In this document: positions 4,657 to 27,975 of the stretch, in pieces
Layout of the letters: each line of letters begins with the position of its first letter
How positions within the stretch are numbered: the stretch's first letter is position 1
DNA from: a virus
DNA: 27,975 nucleotides
Strand: one strand, 5' to 3'
IMG/VR virus record: IMGVR_UViG_3300032047_000100
Coordinates: 1 to 27,975 of that record
Notes under the pieces: model-generated
What the model was told of the DNA's origin: nothing
The model's database searches: none
Seen by the model: the letters and a program-made list of their open reading frames with translations, nothing else
Program-made: the position numbers and the translations under genes

Positions 4657-6219
4657 ATGGAATACAATCAACCAAGCGAGATTGTCAAAGACGTGAACTT
4701 TGGCGATAACGCTAATAAAAAAGTAGTTGCTGGTGTTGAAAAGCTAGCAAAAGCAGTGAAATCAACCCTAGGAGCATCTGGAAAGTGCGTTATCTACGAA
4801 GACGCCAGAGGACTCCCGGTCATAACAAAGGACGGTGTAACTGTAGCAGAATCAGTTGTCTTATTTGACCCGGTTGAAAATATGGGCGCTACCCTTATTA
4901 AAGAAGCTGCTAGAAATACAGTGAGAGAAGCAGGTGATGGTACTACTACAGCTACCGTCCTTGCTGAATCTCTGTTAAAAGAAGCAAATAATAGTGATAC
5001 AACTATTAGAGAAGTAAAAGACGGGATTAAATCCGGTCTAAAAAAGGTAAATGATTACCTAGATAAGATTTCTGTCAAGATCGAGGGCGATATGCTGGAA
5101 TCTGTTAGTTCAATTAGTTGCAACAATGATGCAGAACTAGGAAAGATTATAGCAGAAGCTTATACTAAAGTAGGTAAAGATGGTGTGGTATTAATGGAAG
5201 AGTCTCCAACTGAAGAGACATACGTAGAGGTAGTTGACGGCGTACAAGTAGATTCAGGACTCACATCTCCACATTTTGTTACTGATAAGGACAAGCAGAT
5301 ATGCGAGCTTGATAACCCATTAGTATTAATAGTATCTTCAGAAATCCCAAACATAAGAAAAATACAAACAGTATTAGAGCATGTTATAAAGACTAAGCGG
5401 CCATTACTTATAGTTGCTCCAGTAGACCAACAGGTTAAAGCTGCTCTTCTTATGAATAAAGTGAAAGGTAACATAAAAGTTAATATAGTTGACTTACCAG
5501 GCTTTGGTCCCACTAAAGATGACACAGTTGCTGACTTAGCATTCCTTGTTGGAGCTAAAGTAATCAATGAACAACTTGGTGATGATTTAGATCTTATAGA
5601 TGTGGATTGTTTAGGTCAAGCGTACTCAGCAATAACTGATGATAAAAATACAGTTCTTACTATAGAAACTCCAGAGGACGAAATGGAAGAGAGGATTGAG
5701 AGTATTAAGAAAACTATAGATAAGTGGGAGAAAAACCCGTTTATACAAAAGAAACATAGAGAGAGACTAGCTATGCTATCAGGTTCTGTTGGAATGGTGA
5801 AAGTAGGCGCTGATTCCAAAGTTGAACTCAAAGAAAAGAAAGATAGAATAGAAGATGCTATTTACGCTACAAAAGCAGCGTTAAAAGAAGGGATAGTTCC
5901 TGGTGGTGGTGTAGCACTATTAAATGCGTCTCAAAAAATTTCGACCGACTGCGTCGGTGAAGAGATACTGCTTAAAGCTATAACCGCTCCTTTCCATACT
6001 ATATTAGATAACGCTGGATTAAAAGCATCTACAGATCTTAGTGAAGGTACTGGTATCAACGTTATAACTGGCAAACCCGTTAGTATGATAGCTAGCGGGA
6101 TAATCGATCCGGTTTTGGTTACAAAATCGGCGCTCAAAAATGCAGTGAGCGTAGTATCAACAATTATATCTGCAGATTGTGTAATTTCAAATATGAGAAC
6201 AAATGAAAGCAATCAATAG
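4657..6219 (+). CDS. groEL: Phage-encoded chaperonin GroEL (Hsp60, group I)
   Basis: 520 aa against about 548 in E. coli, collinear over the equatorial, intermediate and apical domains. ATPase signatures are intact: KDGVTV with Asp59, EAGDGTTTATV with Asp94, RIEDAIYATKAA with Asp400 (E. coli Asp52, Asp87, Asp398) and the GIVPGGGVAL loop at 412-421. The apical segment DSGLTSPHF keeps part of the substrate and GroES-binding surface, but Tyr199 and Tyr203 of E. coli are replaced (Leu202, His206). The protein ends at NMRTNESNQ and lacks the GGM-repeat tail. It is highly diverged from typical bacterial GroEL, so it is a phage gene and not host contamination. It overlaps the GroES-like gene by 17 bases, as a groEL-groES order, the reverse of the bacterial groES-groEL. 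Likely role: ATP-driven folding of capsid or tail proteins. Confidence 0.96.
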   Translation: MEYNQPSEIVKDVNFGDNANKKVVAGVEKLAKAVKSTLGASGKCVIYEDARGLPVITKDGVTVAESVVLFDPVENMGATLIKEAARNTVREAGDGTTTATVLAESLLKEANNSDTTIREVKDGIKSGLKKVNDYLDKISVKIEGDMLESVSSISCNNDAELGKIIAEAYTKVGKDGVVLMEESPTEETYVEVVDGVQVDSGLTSPHFVTDKDKQICELDNPLVLIVSSEIPNIRKIQTVLEHVIKTKRPLLIVAPVDQQVKAALLMNKVKGNIKVNIVDLPGFGPTKDDTVADLAFLVGAKVINEQLGDDLDLIDVDCLGQAYSAITDDKNTVLTIETPEDEMEERIESIKKTIDKWEKNPFIQKKHRERLAMLSGSVGMVKVGADSKVELKEKKDRIEDAIYATKAALKEGIVPGGGVALLNASQKISTDCVGEEILLKAITAPFHTILDNAGLKASTDLSEGTGINVITGKPVSMIASGIIDPVLVTKSALKNAVSVVSTIISADCVISNMRTNESNQ

Positions 6220-6460
6220 ATATATTATAGTAGACAGAATAAAGACAGAACCTAAAAAGGTTGCTGGTCTTATAATGACGGACGATACTGATGTAGACAA
6301 CCGTTATATAAAAGCAAAAATAATATCGTGTGGAAATCTTGTAGAAGGTTTAAAAGATAATGACACGATATATTACGATAAACATGCTGGGCACGACATA
6401 TCATGGAGAGATACTCTTTATAGAGTCATTCGTGATGGTGACGTTGTTCTAGTAGATTAA
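6203..6460 (+). CDS. groES: Short GroES-like co-chaperonin (Cpn10), 85 aa
   Basis: The ATG lies inside the end of groEL. The 85 residues follow the Cpn10 pattern: NRYIIVDRIK (E. coli HDRVIVKRK), a mobile-loop region at about 15-34 with the hydrophobic tripeptide in AGLIMTDD (E. coli GGIVLTG), AKIISCGN (GEVLAVGN), then GLKDNDTIYYDKHAGHDI and a C-terminal strand DGDVVLVD. The stretch forming the roof beta-hairpin in E. coli (about ten residues after GNG) is missing here; the chain goes from CGN almost directly to the GLKDND turn. T4 Gp31 also lacks this hairpin and thereby enlarges the cage. The hydrophobic mobile loop should cap the adjacent GroEL. Divergence is high, but context and pattern agree well. 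Confidence 0.85.
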   Translation: MKAINRYIIVDRIKTEPKKVAGLIMTDDTDVDNRYIKAKIISCGNLVEGLKDNDTIYYDKHAGHDISWRDTLYRVIRDGDVVLVD

Positions 6461-6528: not shown

Positions 6529-6957
6529 ATGAAAAAATTCTTATTTTTTAACGATGGCGATAATGACGCGGCATTGTACCCACTAGACAATTTATTGTCT
6601 ATATCACATGAAGCTAACGATACGGTAATGATGAGGTTTGCAAGCTCTAAGCCTTTATCAGAAAGAGTAGTTGCAACACCAGGTCTAACAGCAATAACAA
6701 CTGTTGATGAAGGAAGTGATGATATTCAAGGTAAAGCAGCTCAAACAGCGGCTATAACTGCTGGAGCGATTGCTTACGATGACGTTACTTTAACTGTGAC
6801 TGCTGGAACTTTGGCAAAAGACGCGGTTAGCGCGATATGCAGAGGTATTAACGAGGCTCCTCATTCAACTGGCTTTATAACTATATGTGATGATGTAAAC
6901 AGTGTGTTTATACATAGCTCAATTGCATCTTGTGCAATAACTTACGCAGTAGCATAA
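6529..6957 (+). CDS. Tandem paralog A, 142 aa, putative structural/decoration protein
   Basis: First of two adjacent 142-aa paralogs. It starts MKKFLFFNDGDNDA and ends SSIASCAITYAVA, with an Ala/Thr-rich centre (AAQTAAITAGAIAYDDV) and a conserved GFITICDDVNS. By hand the two copies align without gaps at 82 of 142 identical residues (about 58%). The composition is that of a compact Ala/Thr/Val beta-rich capsid or decoration protein, with two well-spaced cysteines in the C-terminal third (120 and 135) shared with copy B. The leader is a long run of A with scattered T and no Shine-Dalgarno. Function not known; abundance as a virion surface or filler protein is my inference from composition and from duplication next to structural genes. 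Confidence 0.8.
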   Translation: MKKFLFFNDGDNDAALYPLDNLLSISHEANDTVMMRFASSKPLSERVVATPGLTAITTVDEGSDDIQGKAAQTAAITAGAIAYDDVTLTVTAGTLAKDAVSAICRGINEAPHSTGFITICDDVNSVFIHSSIASCAITYAVA

Positions 6958-6984: not shown

Positions 6985-7413
6985 ATGGAAAAATTCTTAT
7001 TTTTTAACGACGCCGATAACGACGCTACTACATACCCACTTAGCAACATGTTATCATTAACACACGAAGGAGATACTTCTCTTGAGTTTAGATTTAAAAG
7101 CTCTAAACCGCTTTCAAGTAGAGTGGTAAATACTTTTGCACAACCAGCTTACACTATAGACAACACGGGTGGTGACGCTACGGCTATTATGGCCGCTCAA
7201 ACTGCCGCTGTTACAGCCGGTGCAATTGCTTACGATAAGGTTGTATTGACTCTTGCCGCTGGAACTTTAGCCGAAGGAGTTATGAGAACTTTAGTTTCTC
7301 ACTTGAATTCTGGTCCAAACACAGATGGTTTTATTACTGTTTGTGATGATGTTAACTCAATACAATTAGACAGCTCAATTGCATCTTGTGCTATTACCTA
7401 CGGAGTAGCATAA
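6985..7413 (+). CDS. Tandem paralog B, 142 aa, putative structural/decoration protein
   Basis: Second copy, 27 bases after copy A, the same length and ungapped. The ends are the best conserved (KFLFFND, DNDA near the start; SSIASCAITY at the end), and the middle is most diverged (residues 51-70 and 101-110). Both keep AAQTAA, TAGAIAYD and CDDVNS. The opening stretch is identical in DNA too (AATTCTTATTTTTTAACGA in both), showing descent from a duplication. Both frames are intact with conserved core residues, so both are probably functional, perhaps forming a hetero-oligomer or occupying distinct lattice sites. No known family assigned. Confidence 0.8.
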   Translation: MEKFLFFNDADNDATTYPLSNMLSLTHEGDTSLEFRFKSSKPLSSRVVNTFAQPAYTIDNTGGDATAIMAAQTAAVTAGAIAYDKVVLTLAAGTLAEGVMRTLVSHLNSGPNTDGFITVCDDVNSIQLDSSIASCAITYGVA

Positions 7414-10236: not shown

Positions 10237-10438
10237 GATTTCTGTAGGTAAGGACTATAAAAATGACGCTATGCACTATGCCGTGGGGCAAGAAGTGTAT
10301 GGTGGTCATACTATCTGTGATATATTAGAAGAAGATGAAAAGTATTCTATATATATTAAAAAGAATAAAGACGTTTTACCTTGGAAAGACTTTAATAAAA
10401 ACATGGCGGTGTCTGTAGAATATAATCTTGAGTACTAA
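10217..10438 (+). CDS. Conserved-looking phage hypothetical protein, 73 aa
   Basis: The ATG lies within the end of the coiled-coil gene, and the stop overlaps the ATG of the GroES-like gene (TAATG), so it is translationally linked on both sides. The product starts MAKLIRKISVGKDYKNDAMH and continues YAVGQEVYGGHTICDI, with charged residues in the middle and a C-terminal strand AVSVEYNLEY. It looks like a compact all-beta domain. It has the feel of a protein repeatedly seen beside the following gene in marine phages, but no function is known to me. Confidence 0.75.
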   Translation: MAKLIRKISVGKDYKNDAMHYAVGQEVYGGHTICDILEEDEKYSIYIKKNKDVLPWKDFNKNMAVSVEYNLEY

Positions 10439-11040
10439 TGAAAAGCGTTCACAACTTTGTTGTAACGCCAAAAGGAGAAAGATATAATAATACTACAAAA
10501 GTTGGTGATTCAGAATTAATACTTAATACTGAAATTTTTAATCATCAATATGTAAATAGAGAGGCAACTGTTATATCTACGCCTATAGCGGGACATACGG
10601 AAATACAAGCTGGAGACACAGTTATAGTGCATCACAATGTTTTTAGAAGATGGCACAATGTAAAAGGTATAGAGAAAAATAGTAGAAGCTATTTTAATGA
10701 GTCTACTTATTTTATAAGCCACGATCAAATATTTTTATACAAAAGAAAAGATAAGTGGACAGCTCCAAAAGGTTATTGTTTTGTAAAACCTTTAAAAGCA
10801 ATAGATCAATTTAATATTGAATCTGAAAAACCTCTACAAGGTATTGTTAAATATTCAGACGGTACAGTAGAAGTAAATGACTTAGTTGGTTTTAGACCAA
10901 GTAGTCAATATGAATTTATAGTTGACGGTGAAAGACTATATAGAGTTTTATCTAATTTTATTACAATCAAATATGAATATCAAGGAGACGAAGAAGAATA
11001 TAATCCAAGCTGGGCAGAGAGCAGTGGAAGAACTGATTAA
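10438..11040 (+). CDS. Double GroES-like barrel protein, 200 aa (second co-chaperonin candidate)
   Basis: The sequence can be read as two Cpn10-type barrels. Barrel 1, residues about 6-103: HNFVVTPKGERY, a loop region at 15-40 with hydrophobic ELIL (like GIVL in the GroES mobile loop), REATVISTP (GEVLAVG), IQAGDTVIVHHNVFR (VKVGDIVIFNDGYG), then YFISHDQIFLYKR as the closing strand. Barrel 2, residues about 111-180: KGYCFVKPL, PLQGIVKYSDG, VEVNDLVGFRP, YEFIVDGERLYRVLSNFITI. Barrel 2 lacks an obvious mobile loop. The C-terminal 20 residues are an acidic tail overlapping the next gene. Inference: a fused, asymmetric co-chaperonin or a GroES-fold protein reused for another job. The alternative is an unrelated beta-barrel virion protein. 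Confidence in the coding call is high, in the fold moderate. Confidence 0.65.
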   Translation: MKSVHNFVVTPKGERYNNTTKVGDSELILNTEIFNHQYVNREATVISTPIAGHTEIQAGDTVIVHHNVFRRWHNVKGIEKNSRSYFNESTYFISHDQIFLYKRKDKWTAPKGYCFVKPLKAIDQFNIESEKPLQGIVKYSDGTVEVNDLVGFRPSSQYEFIVDGERLYRVLSNFITIKYEYQGDEEEYNPSWAESSGRTD

Positions 11041-11248
11041 GGTCGCTAAAGAGCCTATTGTAGATTCTGACGACGATATATCAGCTGATAGATTAAAGAA
11101 TGCTGCGGCTACTAAAAAGCTAGCTATATTTGATGCATTTGAAATACTTAACAGAATCCAAGAAGAAGAGAACTTGCTTGAAGGCAAGGAACCTGAAGAG
11201 AAAAAGGAAACAGTTTTTAGAGGATTTGCAGAGGGAAGATCTAAGTGA
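10973..11248 (+). CDS. Small helical protein in the terminase-small-subunit position, 91 aa
   Basis: I take ATG at 10973, giving MNIKETKKNIIQAGQRAVEE; the earlier in-frame ATG at 10922 would add 17 residues in a different style and lengthen the overlap with the upstream gene. The product is all-helical and charged (RAVEELIKVAKEPI, DRLKNAAATKKLAIFDAFEI), ending FRGFAEGRSK. It directly precedes and overlaps the terminase large subunit (TGATG). The size, helical content and position match a terminase small subunit or part of one, which recognises packaging DNA, but no helix-turn-helix is obvious. Overlap with the GroES-like gene is 68 bases. Confidence 0.72.
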   Translation: MNIKETKKNIIQAGQRAVEELIKVAKEPIVDSDDDISADRLKNAAATKKLAIFDAFEILNRIQEEENLLEGKEPEEKKETVFRGFAEGRSK

Positions 11249-13461
11249 TGTACGAGCAAGATTTATTTAAAATAATAGAACCAATTAAAAAAACGACTAT
11301 TAGTCGTCTTAACAAAGGTAAAAAATGGAAATATGGATATAATAAAGAACATGATATTGTTGTTATCTCAAAGACGGGAAAAATTGGTGAAGTCATTGAA
11401 ATCCAAGGTTTGCGAATTGGCTTGCCGTTGGAACCAAAAGGAGTGTACGTGCACCCCAAAAACAAATGGGTAAAATTTGAACAACCTAAAGAATTATCTC
11501 GTTTAAAGAATATATTTGATTGGAGAAACTATCCTGAAGAGAAAAAAGATCAGTGGTACGATTATATAGACGAGGAGTTTAAAAGAAGAGACGAAGGGTT
11601 TTGGTTTATGAACAATGGTAAACCAACTTATATAGTAGGAACTCATTATATGTACTTGCAATGGAGCAAGATAGATGTTGGAGCTCCAGACTTTAGGGAC
11701 GCAAATAGATTGTTCTTTATATTCTGGGAGGCTTGTAAAGCAGACAAAAGATGTTACGGTATGTGTTATCTAAAGAACAGAAGATCAGGGTTTTCGTTCA
11801 TGTCATCTGCAGAAACAGTTAATTTGGCCACTATATCGAGTGATAGTAGATATGGGATACTATCTAAAACAGGTTCAGATGCGAAAAAAATGTTCACAGA
11901 CAAAGTTGTTCCTATATCGATTAACTATCCATTCTTTTTTAAACCTGTCCAAGATGGTATGGATCGTCCTAAATCCGAACTTGCTTATAGAGTGCCTGCT
12001 AGTAAATTTACAAGAAAGAAAATGTCAGCTACAGATGGCATGGAGGAAATTGAAGGGTTAGACACTACTATTGATTGGAAGAATACAGGTGACAATAGTT
12101 ATGATGGTGAAAAATTAGCATTATTAGTACATGATGAAAGTGGTAAATGGGAAAGACCAGATAATATATTAAACAACTGGCGTGTTACAAAAACATGTCT
12201 TAGATTAGGTAGTAGGATTATAGGTAAGTGTATGATGGGGTCAACTTCCAACGCCCTAGATAAAGGTGGAGATAACTTCAAAAAACTATACAATGCATCA
12301 GACGTCACTAAAAGAAATAGAAATGGTCAGACAAAGTCTGGTTTATACTCTTTGTTTATCCCAATGGAGTGGAACTACGAAGGATTTATTGACGAGCACG
12401 GAGTTCCAGTATTCACTACTCCTGACACAGATGTGTTTGCCCCAGACGGTGAACTAATAGATATAGGAGTAGTAGATAGTTGGCAAAATGAAGTAGATGG
12501 CTTAAAAGGAGATCAAGATGCTTTAAACGAATTCTACAGACAGTTCCCAAGAACTACAGAGCACGCGTTTAGGGATGAATCAAAAGGTAGTATATTTAAC
12601 TTAGTTAAGATATACGAGCAGATAGATTACAACGAAGAAATGTCTAGAACCCTAGGAGTTACTCAAGGTAATTTTCAATGGGTCAATGGAATTAAAGATT
12701 CACAAGTGATATTCTATCCAGATCCAAAGGGTAGATTTAAAGTTAGTTGGGTTCCACCTTCTAGCATACAAAATAGAGTGGTTTTAAAAAATGGTATAAA
12801 ATATCCTGGTAATGAACACATGGGGGCATTTGGTTGTGACTCTTATGATATATCGGGAACCGTAGATGGAGAAGGATCTAAAGGAGCACTACACGGCTTA
12901 ACCAGGTTTAGTATGGAGGACGCTCCTGCGAATAGCTTCTTTTTAGAATACTTATCAAGACCACCTACGGCTGAAATATTCTTTGAAGATGTTTTAATGG
13001 CGTTAGTGTTTTATGGAATGCCAATACTCGCGGAGAATAATAAACCTAGATTATTATACTATTTAAGAAGAAGAGGGTATAGAGGTTTTTCTATGAATCG
13101 ACCTGATAAAATATGGAATAAATTATCTGTAGCGGAGAAAGAAGTTGGTGGAATACCAAACTCTAGTGAGGATATAAAACAAGCTCACGCGGCAGCAATC
13201 GAGATGTATATTCAAGATCACGTAGGCGTGAAACAAGATGGAACTTTTGGAGACTTGTATTTCAATGCTTTGTTAAATGATTGGAGTAGGTTCGATATAA
13301 ACAAAAGAACGAAGTATGATGCGTCTATAAGTTCTGGTTTGGCTATTATGGCAAATAATAGGCATTTATATGCGCCAAACGCTAAGGTTGAAAAACCTAA
13401 ATTAAATATAAACATTTCCAAGTATAGTAATACTGGGACTAATTCACAAATAATAAAATAA
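11248..13461 (+). CDS. terL: Terminase large subunit (packaging ATPase-nuclease)
   Basis: I start at ATG 11248, overlapping the upstream stop (TGATG), 737 aa; GTG at 11245 would add one residue. Numbering counts from the GTG. The ATPase has a degenerate Walker A (LKNRRSGFSFMSS, 176-188; no GK[ST]), a strong Walker B ALLVHDES (292-299, Asp297/Glu298) and a coupling motif MGSTSN (331-336). RQFPRTTEHAF (432-442) is a familiar terminase segment before the nuclease. The nuclease half shows acidic clusters at FGCDSYD (529-535), FFEDVLMAL (579-587) and DWSRFDINKRTKYDAS (679-694) that could bind the metals. The length is at the upper end for the family. It powers DNA translocation into the prohead through the portal encoded next. 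Confidence 0.92.
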   Translation: MYEQDLFKIIEPIKKTTISRLNKGKKWKYGYNKEHDIVVISKTGKIGEVIEIQGLRIGLPLEPKGVYVHPKNKWVKFEQPKELSRLKNIFDWRNYPEEKKDQWYDYIDEEFKRRDEGFWFMNNGKPTYIVGTHYMYLQWSKIDVGAPDFRDANRLFFIFWEACKADKRCYGMCYLKNRRSGFSFMSSAETVNLATISSDSRYGILSKTGSDAKKMFTDKVVPISINYPFFFKPVQDGMDRPKSELAYRVPASKFTRKKMSATDGMEEIEGLDTTIDWKNTGDNSYDGEKLALLVHDESGKWERPDNILNNWRVTKTCLRLGSRIIGKCMMGSTSNALDKGGDNFKKLYNASDVTKRNRNGQTKSGLYSLFIPMEWNYEGFIDEHGVPVFTTPDTDVFAPDGELIDIGVVDSWQNEVDGLKGDQDALNEFYRQFPRTTEHAFRDESKGSIFNLVKIYEQIDYNEEMSRTLGVTQGNFQWVNGIKDSQVIFYPDPKGRFKVSWVPPSSIQNRVVLKNGIKYPGNEHMGAFGCDSYDISGTVDGEGSKGALHGLTRFSMEDAPANSFFLEYLSRPPTAEIFFEDVLMALVFYGMPILAENNKPRLLYYLRRRGYRGFSMNRPDKIWNKLSVAEKEVGGIPNSSEDIKQAHAAAIEMYIQDHVGVKQDGTFGDLYFNALLNDWSRFDINKRTKYDASISSGLAIMANNRHLYAPNAKVEKPKLNINISKYSNTGTNSQIIK

Positions 13462-13465
13462 ATAT

Positions 13466-15883
13466 ATGGCAGAGTCTGGCAATAGTTATTTTCCAAATCA
13501 AACTGTAAGTGACGCTGAAAAGCTGAGCTACGATTATGGTTTAAAGGTTGGTAAAGCAATAGAGCAAGAGTGGTTTAATAATGATAGAAGTCTTAATAGA
13601 TATAAATCTAATCAAAACAATTTTCATAGTTTAAGGTTGTACGCTCGTGGCGAGCAATCAATTCAAAAATACAAGGATGAATTATCTATAAACGGTGATT
13701 TGTCCTATTTAAATTTAGACTGGAAACCAGTACCTATTATATCTAAATTTGTGGATATAGTTGTGAACGGTATTGCTGAAAGAACTTATGACATAAAAGC
13801 GTTCTCGCAAGACCCACATGGTGTTGCCAAGCGAACAAAATATATGGAGTCCATACTTTCAGATATGAGAACAAGAGAGTTAAATGAATTTTCTAAAGAG
13901 GCCTTTGGAATATCTATAGCTGAGAATGATGAGGATACTTTGCCTGAAACAAAAGAAGAGTTAGAATTACACATGCAGTTAACTTACAAGCAGGCTGTAG
14001 AATTAGCAGAAGAACAAGCTTTAAATGTTTTAATGGAAGGTAATAAATACGAATTAATTAAAAAGCAGTTTTATTATGATCTAACGGTGTTGGGTATAGG
14101 TGCTGTTAAAACCTCGTTTAATACCTCTGAGGGTGTTGTTATAGATTATGTAGATCCAGCCAACTTGGTCTATTCTTACACTGAGTCACCTTATTTTGAC
14201 GATATATATTATGTTGGTGAGGTTAAAACTATCCCTGTAAATGAATTAGCAAAACAATTTCCTCATTTAACAGAAGTTGATCTTGAGGATATAATGAAAA
14301 ACAAACCCAACAACAGATCTAATTACAACTCTATACATGCCTATGATAAGGAGGACAATAATACTATTCAAGTTTTATATTTCAACTGGAAATCGTACAT
14401 GAACGAAGTGTATAAAGTGAAAGAAACTGGAACAGGTGCTGATAAAATTATACCTAAAGACGACACGTTTAATCCACCACAAGAAAAAGAGGGTGGATAT
14501 AGTAGAATGCTGCGATCTGTAGAGTGTCTATATGACGGCGCTATGATTTTAGGCACTGACAAACTACTTAGATGGGAAATGGCATCTAATATGATGCGTC
14601 CTAAAAGTGACTTTACTAAAGTAAAAATGAACTATGCTATTGTAGCGCCAAGAATGTATAATGGAAAAATAGATTCATTAGTGAAACGTATAACTGGTTT
14701 TGCTGATATGATACAGTTAACTCATTTGAAATTACAACAAGTAATGGCTAGAATGGTGCCAGATGGTGTTTATTTAGACGCAGATGGTTTGGCAGAAGTT
14801 GATTTGGGTAATGGAACTAACTACAATCCACAAGAAGCATTAAACATGTTCTTTCAAACTGGTAGTGTTATAGGTAGATCATTCACAAGTGAAGGCGACA
14901 TGAATCCTGGTAAAGTACCTATTCAAGAAATAACATCTGGATCTGGCGGTAACAAAATGCAAGCTCTTATAGGTAATTATAATTACTACTTACAAATGAT
15001 AAGAGACGTAACCGGACTTAACGAAGCTAGAGACGGTAGTATGCCAGATAAAAATGCTTTAGTGGGGGTGCAAAAATTAGCTGCTGCTAATTCTAATACA
15101 GCAACTAGACATATACTGCAGGCTGGTTTATATTTAACTGCTGAAACAGCAGAGTGTTTATCACTTAGAGTTTCGGACATTATAGAGTATTCTCCAACTA
15201 AAGACGCTTTTATTCAAGCGATAGGCGTGCATAATGTAGCTACATTAGAAGAAATGCAAGATCTGCATTTATATGACTTTGGTATATTTATAGATTTAAT
15301 GCCAGATGAAGAAGAAAAAATGATGTTAGAAAACAATATACAAATGGCGCTGCAACAACAAAGCATAGAACTTGAAGATGCTATTGATGTTAGGGATATA
15401 AAAAATGTTAAACTAGCAAACCAATTGTTAAAGATAAGAAGAGCTAAGAAACAAGAAAGAGACAGACAGTTGCAATTAGAAAATATCCAAGCGCAAGCCC
15501 AATCTAACGCTCAAGCAGCTCAAGCGGCTGCCCAGACTGAAGTTCAAAAAGAACAAGCATTAACACAAAATAAGGCTCAACTTGAGCAAATGAAAGCGCA
15601 AATTGACGCTCAGAAAATGCAACAAGAAGTTGCCATGAAGAAAGAGTTAATGGCCCTAGAATTCCAATACAACATGCAATTAAAAGGAGTTGAAGTTGAT
15701 GGAATGAAAGATAGAGAAAAGCAAAAGGAAGATAGAAAAGACGAGAGAACAAAAATTCAAGCAACACAACAATCAGAAATGATTGAACAAAGAAATAGTG
15801 GAAAACCACCTAAAAACTTTGAATCCGCAGGTAATGATACCTTAGGCGGGGGATTTGATTTAGGCGCGTTTGACCCTAGTTAA
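13466..15883 (+). CDS. Portal protein
   Basis: 805 aa, directly after the terminase and before scaffold and capsid genes, the classic portal position. The N-terminal and central regions are alpha/beta (SKFVDIVVNGIAERTYDIKA; VIDYVDPANLVYSYTESPYF). Residues about 390-440 contain NGKIDSLVKRITGFADMIQL with LQQVMARMVPDG, the stem/wing segment typical of large portals, and RDVTGLNEARDG is a characteristic portal motif. The last ~170 residues are a long Gln/Ala/Lys-rich helix (AQAQSNAQAAQAAAQTEVQK), probably the barrel or crown coiled coil reaching into the head. The extreme C-terminus has FESAGNDTLGGGFDLGAF. The large size resembles portals of podovirus-like and crAss-like phages. It forms the dodecameric DNA channel. 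Confidence 0.9.
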   Translation: MAESGNSYFPNQTVSDAEKLSYDYGLKVGKAIEQEWFNNDRSLNRYKSNQNNFHSLRLYARGEQSIQKYKDELSINGDLSYLNLDWKPVPIISKFVDIVVNGIAERTYDIKAFSQDPHGVAKRTKYMESILSDMRTRELNEFSKEAFGISIAENDEDTLPETKEELELHMQLTYKQAVELAEEQALNVLMEGNKYELIKKQFYYDLTVLGIGAVKTSFNTSEGVVIDYVDPANLVYSYTESPYFDDIYYVGEVKTIPVNELAKQFPHLTEVDLEDIMKNKPNNRSNYNSIHAYDKEDNNTIQVLYFNWKSYMNEVYKVKETGTGADKIIPKDDTFNPPQEKEGGYSRMLRSVECLYDGAMILGTDKLLRWEMASNMMRPKSDFTKVKMNYAIVAPRMYNGKIDSLVKRITGFADMIQLTHLKLQQVMARMVPDGVYLDADGLAEVDLGNGTNYNPQEALNMFFQTGSVIGRSFTSEGDMNPGKVPIQEITSGSGGNKMQALIGNYNYYLQMIRDVTGLNEARDGSMPDKNALVGVQKLAAANSNTATRHILQAGLYLTAETAECLSLRVSDIIEYSPTKDAFIQAIGVHNVATLEEMQDLHLYDFGIFIDLMPDEEEKMMLENNIQMALQQQSIELEDAIDVRDIKNVKLANQLLKIRRAKKQERDRQLQLENIQAQAQSNAQAAQAAAQTEVQKEQALTQNKAQLEQMKAQIDAQKMQQEVAMKKELMALEFQYNMQLKGVEVDGMKDREKQKEDRKDERTKIQATQQSEMIEQRNSGKPPKNFESAGNDTLGGGFDLGAFDPS

Positions 15884-17122: not shown

Positions 17123-18544
17123 ATGGCAATTACAGGAGTAACGGCGGGTGCATTGACACCATCGCCAAGAAAACAGACGCTTGCGTCTGCATATATTGAC
17201 TTTGCTGACGGTTCCTCAGGGAATGACTGGTCGCAACAATACCTACCAGACTTGATGGAAAAAGAAGCAGAGATTTTTGGAAACAGAACTATCTCAGGTT
17301 TCTTATCACAAGTTGGAGCTGAAGAAGCTATGGCCTCTGACCAAGTTGTTTGGTCTGAGCAAGGTAGATTACATTTACATTACAAAAATTGTACTGTATC
17401 AACTAATACAATTACTATTGTTAACGAAACTGATGGTTCTGCATCTGTATCTACACACGGTATACGTAAAGGTGACATGGTATTAATCTCAGACGCTAAT
17501 GCAACTATTAGAGCTTTCGTTAATGACGTGGCTGCTGATACTATTGCAGTATTACCTTATACTCACGCGAATATCGCTGGTGCTGGTGTTGCTAGTACAA
17601 CTAACGTTAGTGTATTAGTTTACGGTTCTGAGTACGTTAAAGGTGTTACAGGAAGAGACGGGGCTAACGCGCCAACGTTCAAATCTTATAGCAACAAACC
17701 AATCATATTAAAAGACAAGTATGAGATCTCTGGATCTGATGCGTCTGCAATTGGTTGGGTTGAAGTTTCTGGTGAAGACGGTCAGAATGGATACTTATGG
17801 TACTTAAAAGCCGAAGGTGATACTAGAGCTAGATTTACTGATTATTTAGAAATGGCAATGCTTGAGTCTGTATCAGCAACTGTTACGGTTACTAATACTG
17901 ATTCAGCTACTGGTGGTACAATGACTGGTACTGAAGGTTTATTCGCTGCTATCGAAGCAAGAGGTAATCAAACTTCTGGTGTTACTGGTGTTAATGCTGC
18001 TACTGATTTAGCAGAATTTGACGCTATCTTAGCTGAGTTTGATAAAAACGGCGCTATTGAGGAGAACATGATGTTTGTTGATAGATCAACTGCTTTAGCA
18101 ATGGATGACATGTTAGCTTCTATGAATTCTTATGGGGCTGGTGGTACTTCTTACGGAGTATTCAATAACTCTGAAGACATGGCTTTAAACTTAGGTTTCT
18201 CTGGTTTCAGAAGAGGTTCTTATGACTTCTATAAGTCTGACTGGAAATATCTAAACGATGCAGCTGCTAGAGGTGGTATGATTGATACTGTTAGTAATAT
18301 TCGTGGGGCTATAATTCCAGCGGGTGTATCGTCTGTATACGATCAAACTTTAGGTAAAAACCTAAAACGTCCATTCTTACATGTTAGATATAGAGCTTCG
18401 CAAACTGAATCAAGAAAAATGAAAACTTGGGTAACAGGAGCGGTTGGAGCTGTAACATCTGATCTAGATGCAATGGAAGTACACTATTTATCTGAAAGAT
18501 GCTTAGTGGTTCAAGGTGCAAACAATTTCATGTTAATGAACTAA
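17123..18544 (+). CDS. Major capsid protein
   Basis: 473 aa. The position after portal and scaffold, the size, and the low-charge, Ala/Gly/Thr/Ser-rich composition identify the capsid subunit. Segments such as KSYSNKPIILKDKYEISGSD, RARFTDYLEMAM, ENMMFVDRSTALAMDDMLAS and FLHVRYRASQTESRKMKTWV have the helix/strand alternation of an HK97-type subunit. Residues about 95-165 form a Thr/Val/Ala-rich beta insertion (TDGSASVSTHGIRKGDMVLI), perhaps a surface domain. Codons are more uniform (many GCT, ACT, GGT) than in its neighbours, consistent with very high expression. An intrinsic terminator follows immediately. It is the likely main client of the phage chaperonin. Confidence 0.93.
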   Translation: MAITGVTAGALTPSPRKQTLASAYIDFADGSSGNDWSQQYLPDLMEKEAEIFGNRTISGFLSQVGAEEAMASDQVVWSEQGRLHLHYKNCTVSTNTITIVNETDGSASVSTHGIRKGDMVLISDANATIRAFVNDVAADTIAVLPYTHANIAGAGVASTTNVSVLVYGSEYVKGVTGRDGANAPTFKSYSNKPIILKDKYEISGSDASAIGWVEVSGEDGQNGYLWYLKAEGDTRARFTDYLEMAMLESVSATVTVTNTDSATGGTMTGTEGLFAAIEARGNQTSGVTGVNAATDLAEFDAILAEFDKNGAIEENMMFVDRSTALAMDDMLASMNSYGAGGTSYGVFNNSEDMALNLGFSGFRRGSYDFYKSDWKYLNDAAARGGMIDTVSNIRGAIIPAGVSSVYDQTLGKNLKRPFLHVRYRASQTESRKMKTWVTGAVGAVTSDLDAMEVHYLSERCLVVQGANNFMLMN

Positions 18545-21710: not shown

Positions 21711-24700
21711 ATGCCTGAGATAAAACACCAGTTTACCGCTGGTAAGATGAACAAGGATCTTGACGAGAGGCTTGTTCCAAACGGTGAATATAGAGACGCG
21801 ATGAACGTACAAGTGTCAACGTCAGAAGGCTCTGAGGTTGGTACCGTTCAAAATATATTAGGTAACTCTTTAGTTTCAGGGCAAGATTTTATTGAAAATG
21901 ATGCTTACTGTGTTGGTTCTGTAGCGGACGAAAAAAACGATACTTTATATTATTTTATTGTTAATGGCCAATCTTCTTACAAAGGCGATGTTATAATTCA
22001 ACATAATGTAAAAGACAATAGCATAAGTCCAGTATTAGTTGACACAAGTGGTGATGTGTTAAACTTTAAAAATGGCAGGACTAACGACCCCACTTATTAT
22101 ATAACTGGCGTTAATATAATTGACGGTATGTTATTTTGGACAGACAATTATTCCGAGCCAAAAAAGATCAATATTCCAAGATCAATCAATGGTACCAATT
22201 CCGGTGGCCTAACTCACACAGATTTTATTAACGAAAAGACTAGCGTTTCTACACCTATAGAAGAAAAGCATATTACTGTTATTAAGCAAGCGCCTTTATC
22301 AGCACCTAAAATAGAATTAATATCAGAAAGGGACGAGGATAAAACTTATACTGGCGTAATGCGTATCACAGGGCCATTTACTGGGGGTAATGCCAATAAT
22401 GAATCATCATTTAATTTTAGCGCCAATCAAGTTCAAACTAGGTATGATTTTTCTGGATTAAGGATTGGTGATAGTTTTCAAACTGAAATAGAAACTGATA
22501 TAAACGGTGAAAGTGATTTTACTTTAGAGTGGAATGATGGTGACACTGTCTTGTTTAAGGAGTTTATAGATGATCAAGCCCCAACGTTACCAATAACAAA
22601 TTACACTATAAAAGCTAGAGTAGCTGAAAAATTTAATAATAGTAATGAAAATAGGTTTACTGACAGTAGAAGTGAAGAGGCTATAAATGGTGATTTTATC
22701 ACGCCCGATGCTACTGGAACTTGGCCTGAGAGGTTCGACGCTTCTGGTGGGTCTGCTGCCGGTATTACATATAATAGCGCTCTTAATAGAGTAGAGTGGA
22801 ACTTTCCTACATCCAGCACTACTAGTTGGAAAGTTTTTAAGTATATTAGAGATGCTAGCAACAACCAGCCTAACTGGGATGATGGCGGCACGCCAAAGAC
22901 ATACAGAGTTACAGTTGAATTATCTGGAGTTACAGAAGGTCAGCTACGGCTTTATATTGTATCTTCCCAAACAAATAATGGCGGTTGGAACTACGCGTGG
23001 AAGACTGGTAATATGACCACTAATGGAACCCATGTTTTTGATATCACAACAGACATAAATGTAGGAGCTACTGTACATAATTGGAACCAATTTGCTGAAA
23101 ACTTCTTTTTCACAAACAGTAGTACTAGTATAGGTTTTGTAGGTAATATTGATTCTGTTTCTATAGAAAATCTAGATGCTACAAATGCTAGAGTTAGGTT
23201 TGAGGTACTAGATATAGAAGGCATCCCACCTATAGTTCAAGATGGTGATACAGAACTAAAGTATGCTATTGACAAACAAGAAACAGGTGACAAGCTTTAT
23301 GAGTTTAAGTTCCCTAGATTCGCTACAAGATACAAATATCAAGACGGTGAGTACTCTGCTTTTTCTCCCTTTACTTCAGTGGCATTTTTACCAGGCTCAT
23401 TTGATTATGACCCTATTAAAGGTCACAACGTTGGAATGACTAATAGACTTAATAGCGTTAACGTGTACCCTGGGACTAATATTGTTCCAGATGGCGTTAC
23501 GCTTATAGACGTTTTATATAAAGAAGAAAAATCGCCAAATGTTTATGTTTTAGACTCTATAAAGCAAGCAAACTGGAACAGTATGTACAGTGTGACGTCA
23601 GAAGCTGTTAATAGAGCCGTTCCATCTAACCAATTATTGAGGCCTTGGGATAACGTGCCTAAAAAAGCTTTAGCTCAGGACGTGACAGGTAGTAGAATTG
23701 TATACGCTAACTACGAGCAGGGCTATGACTTACTAGACAACAGCGATAATGAGTATGAGTCAAATATTACTGTTGATTTTGAAAGCGAGACAGTTGGTAG
23801 TAAGGTAAAACCGTCTATTAAATCGTCTAGAGATTATCAGGTTGGCATAACGTTTGTTGATCAGTATGGTAGAGAAACACCTGTTGTTGCTGGTCAAGTT
23901 CAAAATACATCTGACGCTAAAAGAGCCAGTAAAGAACTAGCCGACAAAGCAAATAAAATAAGTGTTGTTTTAAACAATAACGATTTTATGAAAGACGCTA
24001 AGTTCTTTAAATTTTTTGTTAAAGAGACTTCTGGAGAATATTATAACATGGCGATGGATAGATTTTGGAAAGCAGAAGATGGGCATGTTTGGGTGTCTTT
24101 TCCTTCGTCTGATGTAAATAAGATTGATATAGACTCTTATCTAATATTGAAAAAAGGTATTGATTCTAGCAGTTTAGTTGGAGATCCGGCTAGATATAAA
24201 GTTATAGCTATAGAAAACGAAGCGCCCGACTTTATTAAAACTAAAAAAACCGTAATAGCTGAAAACATGCACGTTGAAAGTGCTAGTTCTACAGATTTAT
24301 TTGGTAGCACTCTTGCGGGTACGCCGATTCCAGGTGTTAAAGAATTTAAACTAAAATACGAGCCTTTTAGAAACAGTAGTGGATCAAATTTGGATTTAGT
24401 TGATGACGGTAGCGTACATTACGTAGAGTTTACCAACTTAACATCGTCCTCTATTTCTCAGCGATATAGAATAAGTAAAATTGATACCAATTGGAGACAT
24501 CAAACGACTAGCAACCCTGTTTATATTATAAAACTAGACAAGCAACTTGGTGATGACGTTGATTTTATTAATGATGGTACCGAAATATTAGATAACACGA
24601 TAGTGAGGGTATATAAATACAAAAAAGAAAACTCACCAGAATTTGATGGTAGATTTTTTGTTAAAATAGTACAAGACAGTATCTTTAAAAGTAATGTGAG

Positions 24701-27700
24701 CACCAATCAAAGCGCCACCGACTACAAGGTTGTTGTTAGTAAAAAATTATATTACCTAAGTCCCTTTACTAATCACAATGCCATCCACTCAGCCGCTATA
24801 ACTGGACTAGGTAATAACGCTGCTATAGGCGAGGTAGCTAATATGTATGAAAGCACTAATACCAACGGTGCGTCAAATACTTTTGGCAGATTAGCGCCTT
24901 TTTTTAGAAACTACAAATACCCACCTAGCTCTGTGGAGCATAATGATGATAATGGTAATCCACAGCCTATTGGGCAATATCGTTTTGGATTAGGTGATCA
25001 TTGGAAAAATGAGTTTCTAGACTACACTTGTGGAGGGGCAAATTACTGGGACGGTGCTTGGAACAATAATCCGCACTATAGACAATACACCAACTTAAAA
25101 CAGGCAGATAAATATCCAAATCAAGATCCAGACGAAGAAGAAGTTTGGTTTATTGACGCTCATAAATACTTTGGATCTAGAAGCACTAACTATAATAGTT
25201 TACATTGGGGCTATGTCAGCCAATCAAATGGAAATAAAAGTGGTATATCGAACTATGCAGCGGGCTCACCCCAAGCCACATTGAGCATTGCTATTGGCGG
25301 TATATACCACGATGACGTATCAACTTCAAATGAACAGTCTATTGATAATTTTTTCAACGTTGGGTATGATGGTGGTAATTCATATTACCAAGACGACGCT
25401 ACAAAGAGTTTAGTTGGTCAATTTAATTCGAGTAAAAAGTTTAGATTTAGAGATGACCCAGAACAAACAGTATATACGGTGCAGTCCAAAGTGGATAGTC
25501 AACTGCTTAGGTTTAATGATGGTAACCCTACTGATGAAACACAAGGACATGTTAGTGGCGTTTACCCTTGGTCTAGTGGCTATAGTTGGAATTTACAAAT
25601 TGCTCAACTATCTCCAAACTTCACCAGAAATTGGGATTTAAGAGTTAAAAACCCAAACAACGATGGGCAAATGAACTGGGTGCCAACAGGGACTGCGGGC
25701 CCTATAACTGGTGGTTTAGAAATAACGATAGATCATAGTGCTTTTGCACCCACTAATACTCACGGAAACCTTATTGTTTCTGTTGCAAGTCCAATTGGAA
25801 TTGATCCCACTAGAGGCTCTTGGCCAATAAAAGAAGGAATGATATTGGTTAGCCATAGCGATGGTGGTACTACATACGATGGCACGAGCAACAAAGAGTA
25901 TCTAGCAATATGGAAAATCGAAAAACAAACCGCTACTAAGTATAATATTCATTTAACAGGATATTCTAAGTTACTGCAAAGCACCCATTTAATATTTGCT
26001 ACTGCACCAACGGTTAGTCAGTCAATGGTATTTAAGCAAGCAAAAATGAATGGTTATAGTCAATTTTCTGCTAATAGAATAAATGAGCAAAATGCTCCTA
26101 CATACGGTTTAACAAACCCAGGTCTATACGCGCTTGGTTATAGTATTGAGTTTTTAGAAGAGGTTGAAGCGGATAGCGTTCTGCCTGACAATCCAGCAAT
26201 ATGGGAAACAGAGCCAAAAGAAAATACACCTTTAGATGTATATTACGAGGCTAGTGGCTTAAATCCTGTTAAATTAGAAGATGACACTAAGCATTTAGCA
26301 ATCCCCATTGGCTCAACTGTGACCCACACTGGGAATTCCGCTAGTATTTCAGAAGGAACATTAGTTGCTAGTGTTGGCTTTATCCCATATAACGAACCAA
26401 TGAGTGCAAACGCTCAGAGCGGTTGGTACATGATACTTGGGTCGAAAATAGAACTACCAGATCCGTTCGTCGGAGCGCCTTATATAGTCGAGCAATCTAC
26501 CCTGCGCATTGCGAAACCCGACGGTAGCTCTGTAAATGTTGTAGTGACTGGTTGGGAGGGTTCTGATGCTAATGCTACTAAGTTTTTTATAGGTGAAGAA
26601 CTATACAATAAAAAATACACTCTAAATTGGCACAATTGCTTTTCTTTTGGTAACGGTGTAGAATCAAATAGGATTAGAGATACTTTTAATTTACCATTTA
26701 TTGACAATGGGGCTAGAGTATCTACAACATTAGAAGATGAAGAGGATTATAGATTAGATCGTAGAAAAAGTGGATTAATATACTCCGGGCTTTACAACAG
26801 TATTGGCGGTATTAATAATTTAAACCAATTTATAGCCGCAGAAAAAATAACTAAAGATCTAAACCCTGTATATGGTAGTATTCAAAAACTACACTCTAGA
26901 GATTCTGATTTAATAGCGTTATGTGAAGATAAAGTAGTACAAATACTAGCAGATAAAGACGCTGTTTTTGAAGCAGACGGTAGTCCTCAGTTGACTGCTA
27001 CAAATAGAGTTTTAGGGCAATCTAGACCTTTTGTAGGTGAGTATGGTATATCAAGCAATCCAGAGTCGTTTGCGTCTGAATCTTATAGAGCTTATTTTAC
27101 AGATAAAGTTAGAGGCGCTGTAATGAGATTATCAAAAGATGGGTTGACACCTATATCCGATGCTGGCATGAAAGATTACTTTAAAGATAATCTTAAAAAT
27201 AACGATTTATTAATTGGTAGTTATGATGATAAAAAAGATGAATACAACTTAACGCTACCAACCACGGGCACTACAGTTTCGTTTAAAGAAGACATAAGAG
27301 GTTGGGTTAGTTTTAAATCTTTTGTGCCTGACAATGCCATTAGTTGTGCAAATGATTATTTTACATTGAAAGATGGTAAGCTTTATAAACACCATGACGA
27401 GGGTGTAGATAGAAATACTTTTTATGATAGTTTTACAGAATCACATGTGGATGTGTTGTTAAACGACATGCCTAGTAGTATAAAATCATATCACACTTTA
27501 GATTATGAAGGTAGTCAATCTAGAGTTGAAGGTATCAAAAGAGTAGAGGTAACAGGAATAGAACACGCTGATGGCTCGTCTATTGATGGTAAATATTTCT
27601 TCTTTGAAGTGTCGGATATGGACGCGTTATTAGATAATTCAAATTGGCATACTACAACTGTTGAAGTAAAGCAATACCGTAATAGTATACTTATACGCGC

Positions 27701-27975
27701 GGGGTTAGTGAAAATCTGGGATAACACTTCTAGTAACTCGTTATTTCCTGCTTCAACTTCTGGAGGCCCAACAAAAGGACACGGGCGGTATAACACAGGT
27801 ACTGAGCCAGGGGACTTTGAAGTTGGAGATGTTATAACAACGCAACTCCAAGAAGAAAGTATTCACGCGATTGGTTCTAACCTATTTAATTCTACTCCAA
27901 CAGACGGTTGGTTCGTTAGTAATATTGAGACAAATAAAGAAAAAGGTAGTTTATCTGAATTTATAGAAAAAGAAG
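21711..27975 (+). CDS. Giant tail/stabilization-type protein, >2088 aa, partial
   Basis: The frame opens at ATG 21711 and stays open for 6265 bases to the window edge. The N-terminus (HQFTAGKMNKDLDERLVPNG, then EYRDAMNVQVSTSEGSEVGT) is the pattern seen at the start of propeller-like stabilization/tail-hub proteins in podovirus-like marine phages and recalls P22 gp10. Around 26630-27480 a conserved domain appears: NGVESNRIRDTF, ITKDLNPVYGSIQKLHSRDS, LCEDKVVQILADKDAVFEAD, RPFVGEYGISSNPESFASES, YRAYFTDKVRGAVMRLSKDG, GWVSFKSFVPDN, DYFTLKDGKLYKH and YHTLDYEGSQS. Between lie large variable beta-rich stretches that read like carbohydrate-binding or fibronectin-type insertions. Likely a tail hub/nozzle scaffold holding receptor-binding parts. 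The C-terminus is not seen. Confidence 0.85.
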   Translation, partial: MPEIKHQFTAGKMNKDLDERLVPNGEYRDAMNVQVSTSEGSEVGTVQNILGNSLVSGQDFIENDAYCVGSVADEKNDTLYYFIVNGQSSYKGDVIIQHNVKDNSISPVLVDTSGDVLNFKNGRTNDPTYYITGVNIIDGMLFWTDNYSEPKKINIPRSINGTNSGGLTHTDFINEKTSVSTPIEEKHITVIKQAPLSAPKIELISERDEDKTYTGVMRITGPFTGGNANNESSFNFSANQVQTRYDFSGLRIGDSFQTEIETDINGESDFTLEWNDGDTVLFKEFIDDQAPTLPITNYTIKARVAEKFNNSNENRFTDSRSEEAINGDFITPDATGTWPERFDASGGSAAGITYNSALNRVEWNFPTSSTTSWKVFKYIRDASNNQPNWDDGGTPKTYRVTVELSGVTEGQLRLYIVSSQTNNGGWNYAWKTGNMTTNGTHVFDITTDINVGATVHNWNQFAENFFFTNSSTSIGFVGNIDSVSIENLDATNARVRFEVLDIEGIPPIVQDGDTELKYAIDKQETGDKLYEFKFPRFATRYKYQDGEYSAFSPFTSVAFLPGSFDYDPIKGHNVGMTNRLNSVNVYPGTNIVPDGVTLIDVLYKEEKSPNVYVLDSIKQANWNSMYSVTSEAVNRAVPSNQLLRPWDNVPKKALAQDVTGSRIVYANYEQGYDLLDNSDNEYESNITVDFESETVGSKVKPSIKSSRDYQVGITFVDQYGRETPVVAGQVQNTSDAKRASKELADKANKISVVLNNNDFMKDAKFFKFFVKETSGEYYNMAMDRFWKAEDGHVWVSFPSSDVNKIDIDSYLILKKGIDSSSLVGDPARYKVIAIENEAPDFIKTKKTVIAENMHVESASSTDLFGSTLAGTPIPGVKEFKLKYEPFRNSSGSNLDLVDDGSVHYVEFTNLTSSSISQRYRISKIDTNWRHQTTSNPVYIIKLDKQLGDDVDFINDGTEILDNTIVRVYKYKKENSPEFDGRFFVKIVQDSIFKSNVSTNQSATDYKVVVSKKLYYLSPFTNHNAIHSAAITGLGNNAAIGEVANMYESTNTNGASNTFGRLAPFFRNYKYPPSSVEHNDDNGNPQPIGQYRFGLGDHWKNEFLDYTCGGANYWDGAWNNNPHYRQYTNLKQADKYPNQDPDEEEVWFIDAHKYFGSRSTNYNSLHWGYVSQSNGNKSGISNYAAGSPQATLSIAIGGIYHDDVSTSNEQSIDNFFNVGYDGGNSYYQDDATKSLVGQFNSSKKFRFRDDPEQTVYTVQSKVDSQLLRFNDGNPTDETQGHVSGVYPWSSGYSWNLQIAQLSPNFTRNWDLRVKNPNNDGQMNWVPTGTAGPITGGLEITIDHSAFAPTNTHGNLIVSVASPIGIDPTRGSWPIKEGMILVSHSDGGTTYDGTSNKEYLAIWKIEKQTATKYNIHLTGYSKLLQSTHLIFATAPTVSQSMVFKQAKMNGYSQFSANRINEQNAPTYGLTNPGLYALGYSIEFLEEVEADSVLPDNPAIWETEPKENTPLDVYYEASGLNPVKLEDDTKHLAIPIGSTVTHTGNSASISEGTLVASVGFIPYNEPMSANAQSGWYMILGSKIELPDPFVGAPYIVEQSTLRIAKPDGSSVNVVVTGWEGSDANATKFFIGEELYNKKYTLNWHNCFSFGNGVESNRIRDTFNLPFIDNGARVSTTLEDEEDYRLDRRKSGLIYSGLYNSIGGINNLNQFIAAEKITKDLNPVYGSIQKLHSRDSDLIALCEDKVVQILADKDAVFEADGSPQLTATNRVLGQSRPFVGEYGISSNPESFASESYRAYFTDKVRGAVMRLSKDGLTPISDAGMKDYFKDNLKNNDLLIGSYDDKKDEYNLTLPTTGTTVSFKEDIRGWVSFKSFVPDNAISCANDYFTLKDGKLYKHHDEGVDRNTFYDSFTESHVDVLLNDMPSSIKSYHTLDYEGSQSRVEGIKRVEVTGIEHADGSSIDGKYFFFEVSDMDALLDNSNWHTTTVEVKQYRNSILIRAGLVKIWDNTSSNSLFPASTSGGPTKGHGRYNTGTEPGDFEVGDVITTQLQEESIHAIGSNLFNSTPTDGWFVSNIETNKEKGSLSEFIEKE

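Follow-up and report, generated by a model that had tools for sequence, protein, structure and literature searches.

A phage-encoded GroEL-GroES pair with a roofless lid and a tandem GroES-like gene beside the terminase

The window analyzed here, a 27,975-base IMG/VR virus contig taken whole that may itself be a fragment, encodes a GroEL and a GroES in overlapping genes, together with a second, tandem GroES-like protein. It is likely that the pair serves the phage as its own group I chaperonin set, folding virion and other phage proteins with no need of the host GroEL, and that the missing roof of the lid and the missing GroEL tail are lineage traits. A claim made for one phage becomes a trait of a lineage, in that a phage group with many representatives in IMG/VR carries a full chaperonin set whose lid has no roof. 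The genes of the window that bear on this reading are the following.

4657..6219, + strand: groEL, 520 aa; subunit of a group I chaperonin that keeps its ATP site and lacks a GGM tail
6203..6460, + strand: groES, 85-aa roofless lid subunit with mobile loop GLIM
10438..11040, + strand: tandem GroES-like protein of Cpn20-like architecture, 200 aa, just upstream of the terminase gene
11245..13461, + strand: terminase large subunit (PHROG 6681, 1e-174)
13466..15883, + strand: portal protein (PHROG 6547), which groups the phage with Bacteroidota podophages
17123..18544, + strand: virion structural protein and candidate for the major capsid protein (PHROG 13704, 8e-103; 50.6 kDa)

The groEL product matched the Cpn60 family over its whole length. 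Residues 30-512 matched PF00118 above the cut-off (E 5e-51), and the protein also matched PHROG 5725 (E 8e-136) and, above the cut-off, the NCBIfam GroEL subfamily NF000592 (E 2e-139). The equivalog cut-off of TIGR02348, a naming threshold and not a biochemical feature, was missed (459 bits versus 582.1). Alignment to E. coli GroEL found the ATP-site residues G32, D52, G53, D87-T91, D398, G414-G416, and D495 kept, among them the ATP and Mg residues of group I chaperonins (D52, D87, D398, and D495, with GDGTTT), and the 10 ATP-site positions checked were unchanged in 75/75 close relatives. The protein ends in ...VISNMRTNESNQ, with no GGM tail. The original prediction of an ATPase-complete GroEL lacking this tail was therefore borne out by the family matches, the residue check, and the C terminus.

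Two other regions depart from the E. coli protein. Positions Y203, L234, and L259 of the E. coli apical groove bind clients and GroES alike; they are replaced by polar residues (Y203H, L234Q, and L259K) in 75/75 close relatives, without exception. The hydrophobic groove residues F204 and L237 are kept in the clade, and two others are exchanged for similar ones (V263L and V264M). The three polar residues could reduce the normal binding of clients or of the lid, and they may narrow the range of clients. The positions of the E. coli inter-ring contacts (K105, E434, R452, E461, and V464) are poorly conserved in the phage GroEL and its relatives; because they vary freely, the protein may not form a double ring.

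The groES gene overlaps groEL by 17 nucleotides and encodes a 9.8-kDa lid subunit, which matched PF00166 above the cut-off (E 4.9e-7) and missed the NCBIfam equivalog cut-off for GroES. Its mobile loop has the hydrophobic tripeptide typical of GroES/Cpn10 (in GLIM), and the mobile-loop stretch is within two residues of the length of that of E. coli GroES in the alignment. Between the equivalents of E. coli G44 and G62, the lid has 9 residues versus 17 in E. coli GroES. The AlphaFold2 model (pLDDT 86.7) is confident in the core and weaker in the mobile loop, with 10-residue blocks near 62, and no strand pair occupies the roof position in it. Neither alignment nor model thus contained a roof hairpin like that of E. 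coli GroES, as had been predicted for this overlapping 85-aa protein. The hairpin, present in E. coli GroES and absent in gp31, is not a universal criterion for GroES.

The comparison with Gp31 and Cpn10 structures that the original prediction proposed placed the lid model in both sets. Among Cpn10 chains the best match was 1wnr_G (Z 11.3, rmsd 1.6 over 75 residues), in agreement with a Cpn10 beta-barrel fold. T4 gp31, likewise a phage lid without roof loops, has the same fold (2cgt_O, Z 9.4; 1g31_A, Z 8.6), but it is larger than the lid encoded here (111 aa and 12 kDa versus 85 aa and 9.8 kDa), has longer mobile loops (PMC6318259), and uses the host GroEL. Roof counts for gp31 depended on the alignment (16 and 18 residues), and no residue count is claimed for it.

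The median dN/dS was approximately 0.10 for both groEL and groES, and the overlap recurs in 136 related loci (17 nucleotides in 91 and 14 nucleotides in 45), some of which lie on the same contig, so that 136 should not be read as the number of independent phages. These two observations indicate that the genes are real and do not arise by chance. In IMG/VR, 294 stretches encode a GroEL relative, and the best 80 of the 294 were kept. A second clade, consisting of relatives of the GroEL of podovirus ctfjg026 (35.5% identical to that of the window), has groES close downstream in 45/80 loci. No phage GroEL compared in either clade ends in a GGM tail, the sole GGM in the comparison being that of the E. 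coli control. All 165 distinct GroES relatives from the two phage clades are roofless, and all carry a G[LI]xx[TS] loop. The scan of IMG/VR found no relatives of the GroEL of Maribacter phage Panino.

Some phages are known to encode both GroEL and GroES (PMC7185714), and several phages deposited in GenBank resemble the window closely. Elemovirus, Panino, and ctfjg026 all have groEL followed by groES on one strand, a roofless lid (83-101 aa as annotated), a tailless GroEL, and a tandem GroES-like gene that closely precedes the terminase gene, with one short ORF between the two in ctfjg026. They differ from the window in that their GroELs are 35-38% identical to its GroEL, and in Panino a small ORF separates groEL from groES. 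The Cellulophaga phages phi38:1 and Calle (Pervagoviridae) also have a tailless GroEL and a single-domain Cpn10, and in phi38:1 the tandem co-chaperonin gene adjoins that of the terminase; in both phages, however, groES precedes groEL and a single gene separates them. The roof count for phi38:1 varied (9 and 16 residues). Bacteroides phage DAC16 combines a roofless lid with a GroEL lacking GGM in the order groES-groEL; its roofless GroES-like ORF lies at 1230-1493, ahead of the GroEL, and both are annotated as hypothetical proteins. Six further phage GroELs, that of DAC16 included, were read to their ends and none has GGM (0/6), those of Vibrio phages KT1024 and 207E48.1 and of Calle being wholly tailless. 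In phage immuto, also among these six, the roof segment of GroES is full length.

The roof and tail trims are thus common in phages, although not universal. The original prediction had considered it notable that one phage set should combine both, a view that does not hold given their joint presence in Panino, ctfjg026, Elemovirus, and DAC16. Likewise, the order groEL-groES was reported correctly, but it is common to the relatives and is not special to this phage. As far as sequence comparison can tell, the missing roof and tail appear to be traits shared by related phages and not an adaptation particular to this one. The structural facts stand and the adaptive story does not: the pair is an ordinary phage GroEL-GroES whose lid, like gp31, has no roof.

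The host is probably a member of the Bacteroidota. The portal protein is 54% identical to that of ctfjg026, 48% to that of Panino, and 42% to that of Elemovirus (Flavobacterium), followed by those of Cellulophaga phages. A GroEL relative at 75% identity lies in a contig binned to a Sphingobacteriales metagenome-assembled genome (MAG), although the binning of phage contigs is unreliable. This MAG contains three groEL and six Cpn10-like genes, and two of its groEL-groES pairs (contigs C26 and C28) look phage-type.

Bacterial lids provided a second standard for the length of the roof. The 30 GroES proteins that scored best among the sampled Bacteroidota genomes have a roof segment of 16 or 17 residues, but they are the top of a ranking and biased to canonical forms. 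Nine lower-scoring ones were readable, six of them measured at 12 roof residues by script and three by eye, and the Sphingobacteriales MAG likewise has a chromosomal GroES with a 12-residue segment. Against such proteins, the phage lid is shorter by only approximately three residues.

The roof is already shorter in some possible hosts, which favors a reading of the trims as neutral or economy-driven shortening, unneeded parts having been lost from a dedicated chaperonin with few clients while the size of the cage stayed unchanged or did not matter. The fixation of both trims across divergent clades and the partial function of E. coli GroEL lacking its last 16 or 27 residues (PMC11978752) agree with it. 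However, the length of the roof segment is identical in 165/165 distinct lids, which suggests constraint rather than drift, and we regard neutral or economy-driven loss as a possible but not the favored account.

The original prediction offered a different explanation, in which the loss of both roof and tail served to make room in the cage for a single bulky client from the virion, in the manner claimed for T4 gp31. The set does lack both parts, and gp31, also without roof loops, forms a complex whose chamber is 8% larger; nevertheless, that gain is credited to the bigger, heavier subunit and the longer mobile loops of gp31, the missing roof being associated instead with a wider opening (PMC6318259). 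The lid of the window is smaller than gp31. The candidate major capsid protein, so assigned from PHROG 13704 and gene order, has a mass of 50.6 kDa versus 56 kDa for gp23 and would not require a larger cage on size alone. Moreover, GroEL tails without GGM are common in phages and in bacterial paralogues, and a 12-residue roof already occurs in some Bacteroidota GroES. Both trims could be read equally well as making the chamber leakier. Neither the enlargement nor the bulky client is supported; we rejected the larger cage as the default reading and consider it improbable.

Under the preferred reading of the pair as a self-sufficient chaperonin set, the phage GroEL would bind unfolded phage proteins and ATP, in a ring that may be double or single. 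The roofless GroES would dock on it through the GLIM loops and close the ring, probably with a hole at the top of the dome. The clients would most likely be virion and other phage proteins, folded independently of the host GroEL. The opposite view, that GroEL acts mainly without a lid as a holdase or as a single-ring chaperonin like phage EL gp146, can draw on the unconserved inter-ring contacts, the partly polar groove, and the activity of gp146 without GroES (PMC7185714), but it is very unlikely, as a groES with its docking loop is kept beside groEL under purifying selection and the groove retains hydrophobic residues at F204, L237, V263L, and V264M. Phage EL resembles the window phage in encoding a GroEL-like ATPase and differs from it in having no known lid, gp146 being unresponsive to E. 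coli GroES (PMC7185714).

The part of the window most worth testing is the tandem GroES-like protein. Over residues 1-123 it matched PHROG 13932 (co-chaperonin GroES; 8e-17), it is homologous to phi38:1 gp089 (E 7e-15), and most of its sequence can be aligned to proteins of Elemovirus, Panino, ctfjg026, and phi38:1, several of which are annotated as co-chaperonin GroES. Its dN/dS is 0.11. The protein itself had no Pfam match, Cpn10 included, and a PDB sequence search yielded no direct match; profile comparison gave weak probabilities of 30-38%. The C-terminal halves of the homologues in phi38:1 (gp089) and Cellulophaga phage phi19:3 score above the Pfam Cpn10 cut-off. GroES-like loops are present in both halves among the homologues, with GLIL in the N-terminal half in Elemovirus, GLRVI in the C-terminal half in phi38:1, and one in each half (GLEL and SLIYI) in phi19:3. 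Matches in Pseudomonas syringae and Pectobacterium phages were rejected as homologues, being partial, at E 0.1 or worse, and absent with a related query.

A single PDB entry matched the model of the protein (pLDDT 77.9) at E below 0.001, namely, that of the tandem co-chaperonin CPN20 (7ekq_R; Z 9.7, rmsd 3.5, 156 residues), with an alignment spanning residues 1-180. The structure match points to two GroES-like domains, with Cpn10 in the C-terminal half recognized only through homologues. Like chloroplast CPN20, the modeled protein has the two domains head to tail, but it is encoded by a phage gene and its sequence lacks a direct PDB match. The model supports the fold, and the protein probably acts as a second lid.

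Single and tandem lid genes occurred together in 6/6 phages examined (the window, ctfjg026, Panino, Elemovirus, phi38:1, and phi19:3). The tandem type of co-chaperonin has been called chloroplast-specific, and chloroplast lids are mixtures of both types (PMC5780408); in a narrow literature search, this plant review was the only paper found that joined tandem, GroES, Cpn20, and phage. We tentatively raise the idea, which we think more likely wrong than right by a wide measure, that these phages have a two-type lid independent of chloroplasts, with single and tandem subunits in a mixed seven-domain ring (e.g., three tandem and one single) on the phage or host GroEL. Such a chloroplast-style ring would be new, and a working tandem lid would change the chloroplast-specific view of the type. 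Phage phi19:3 lacks groEL but has genes for both lid types, the single-domain GroES gp082 and the tandem GroES-like gp101, and it is a culturable test case for the phage tandem lid.

Elsewhere in the window, two adjacent ORFs of 142 aa directly follow groES (6529-6957 and 6985-7413); they share 58% identity and have no confident family match. An ORF of at least 2088 aa occupies 21711-27974 and is cut off by the end of the window.
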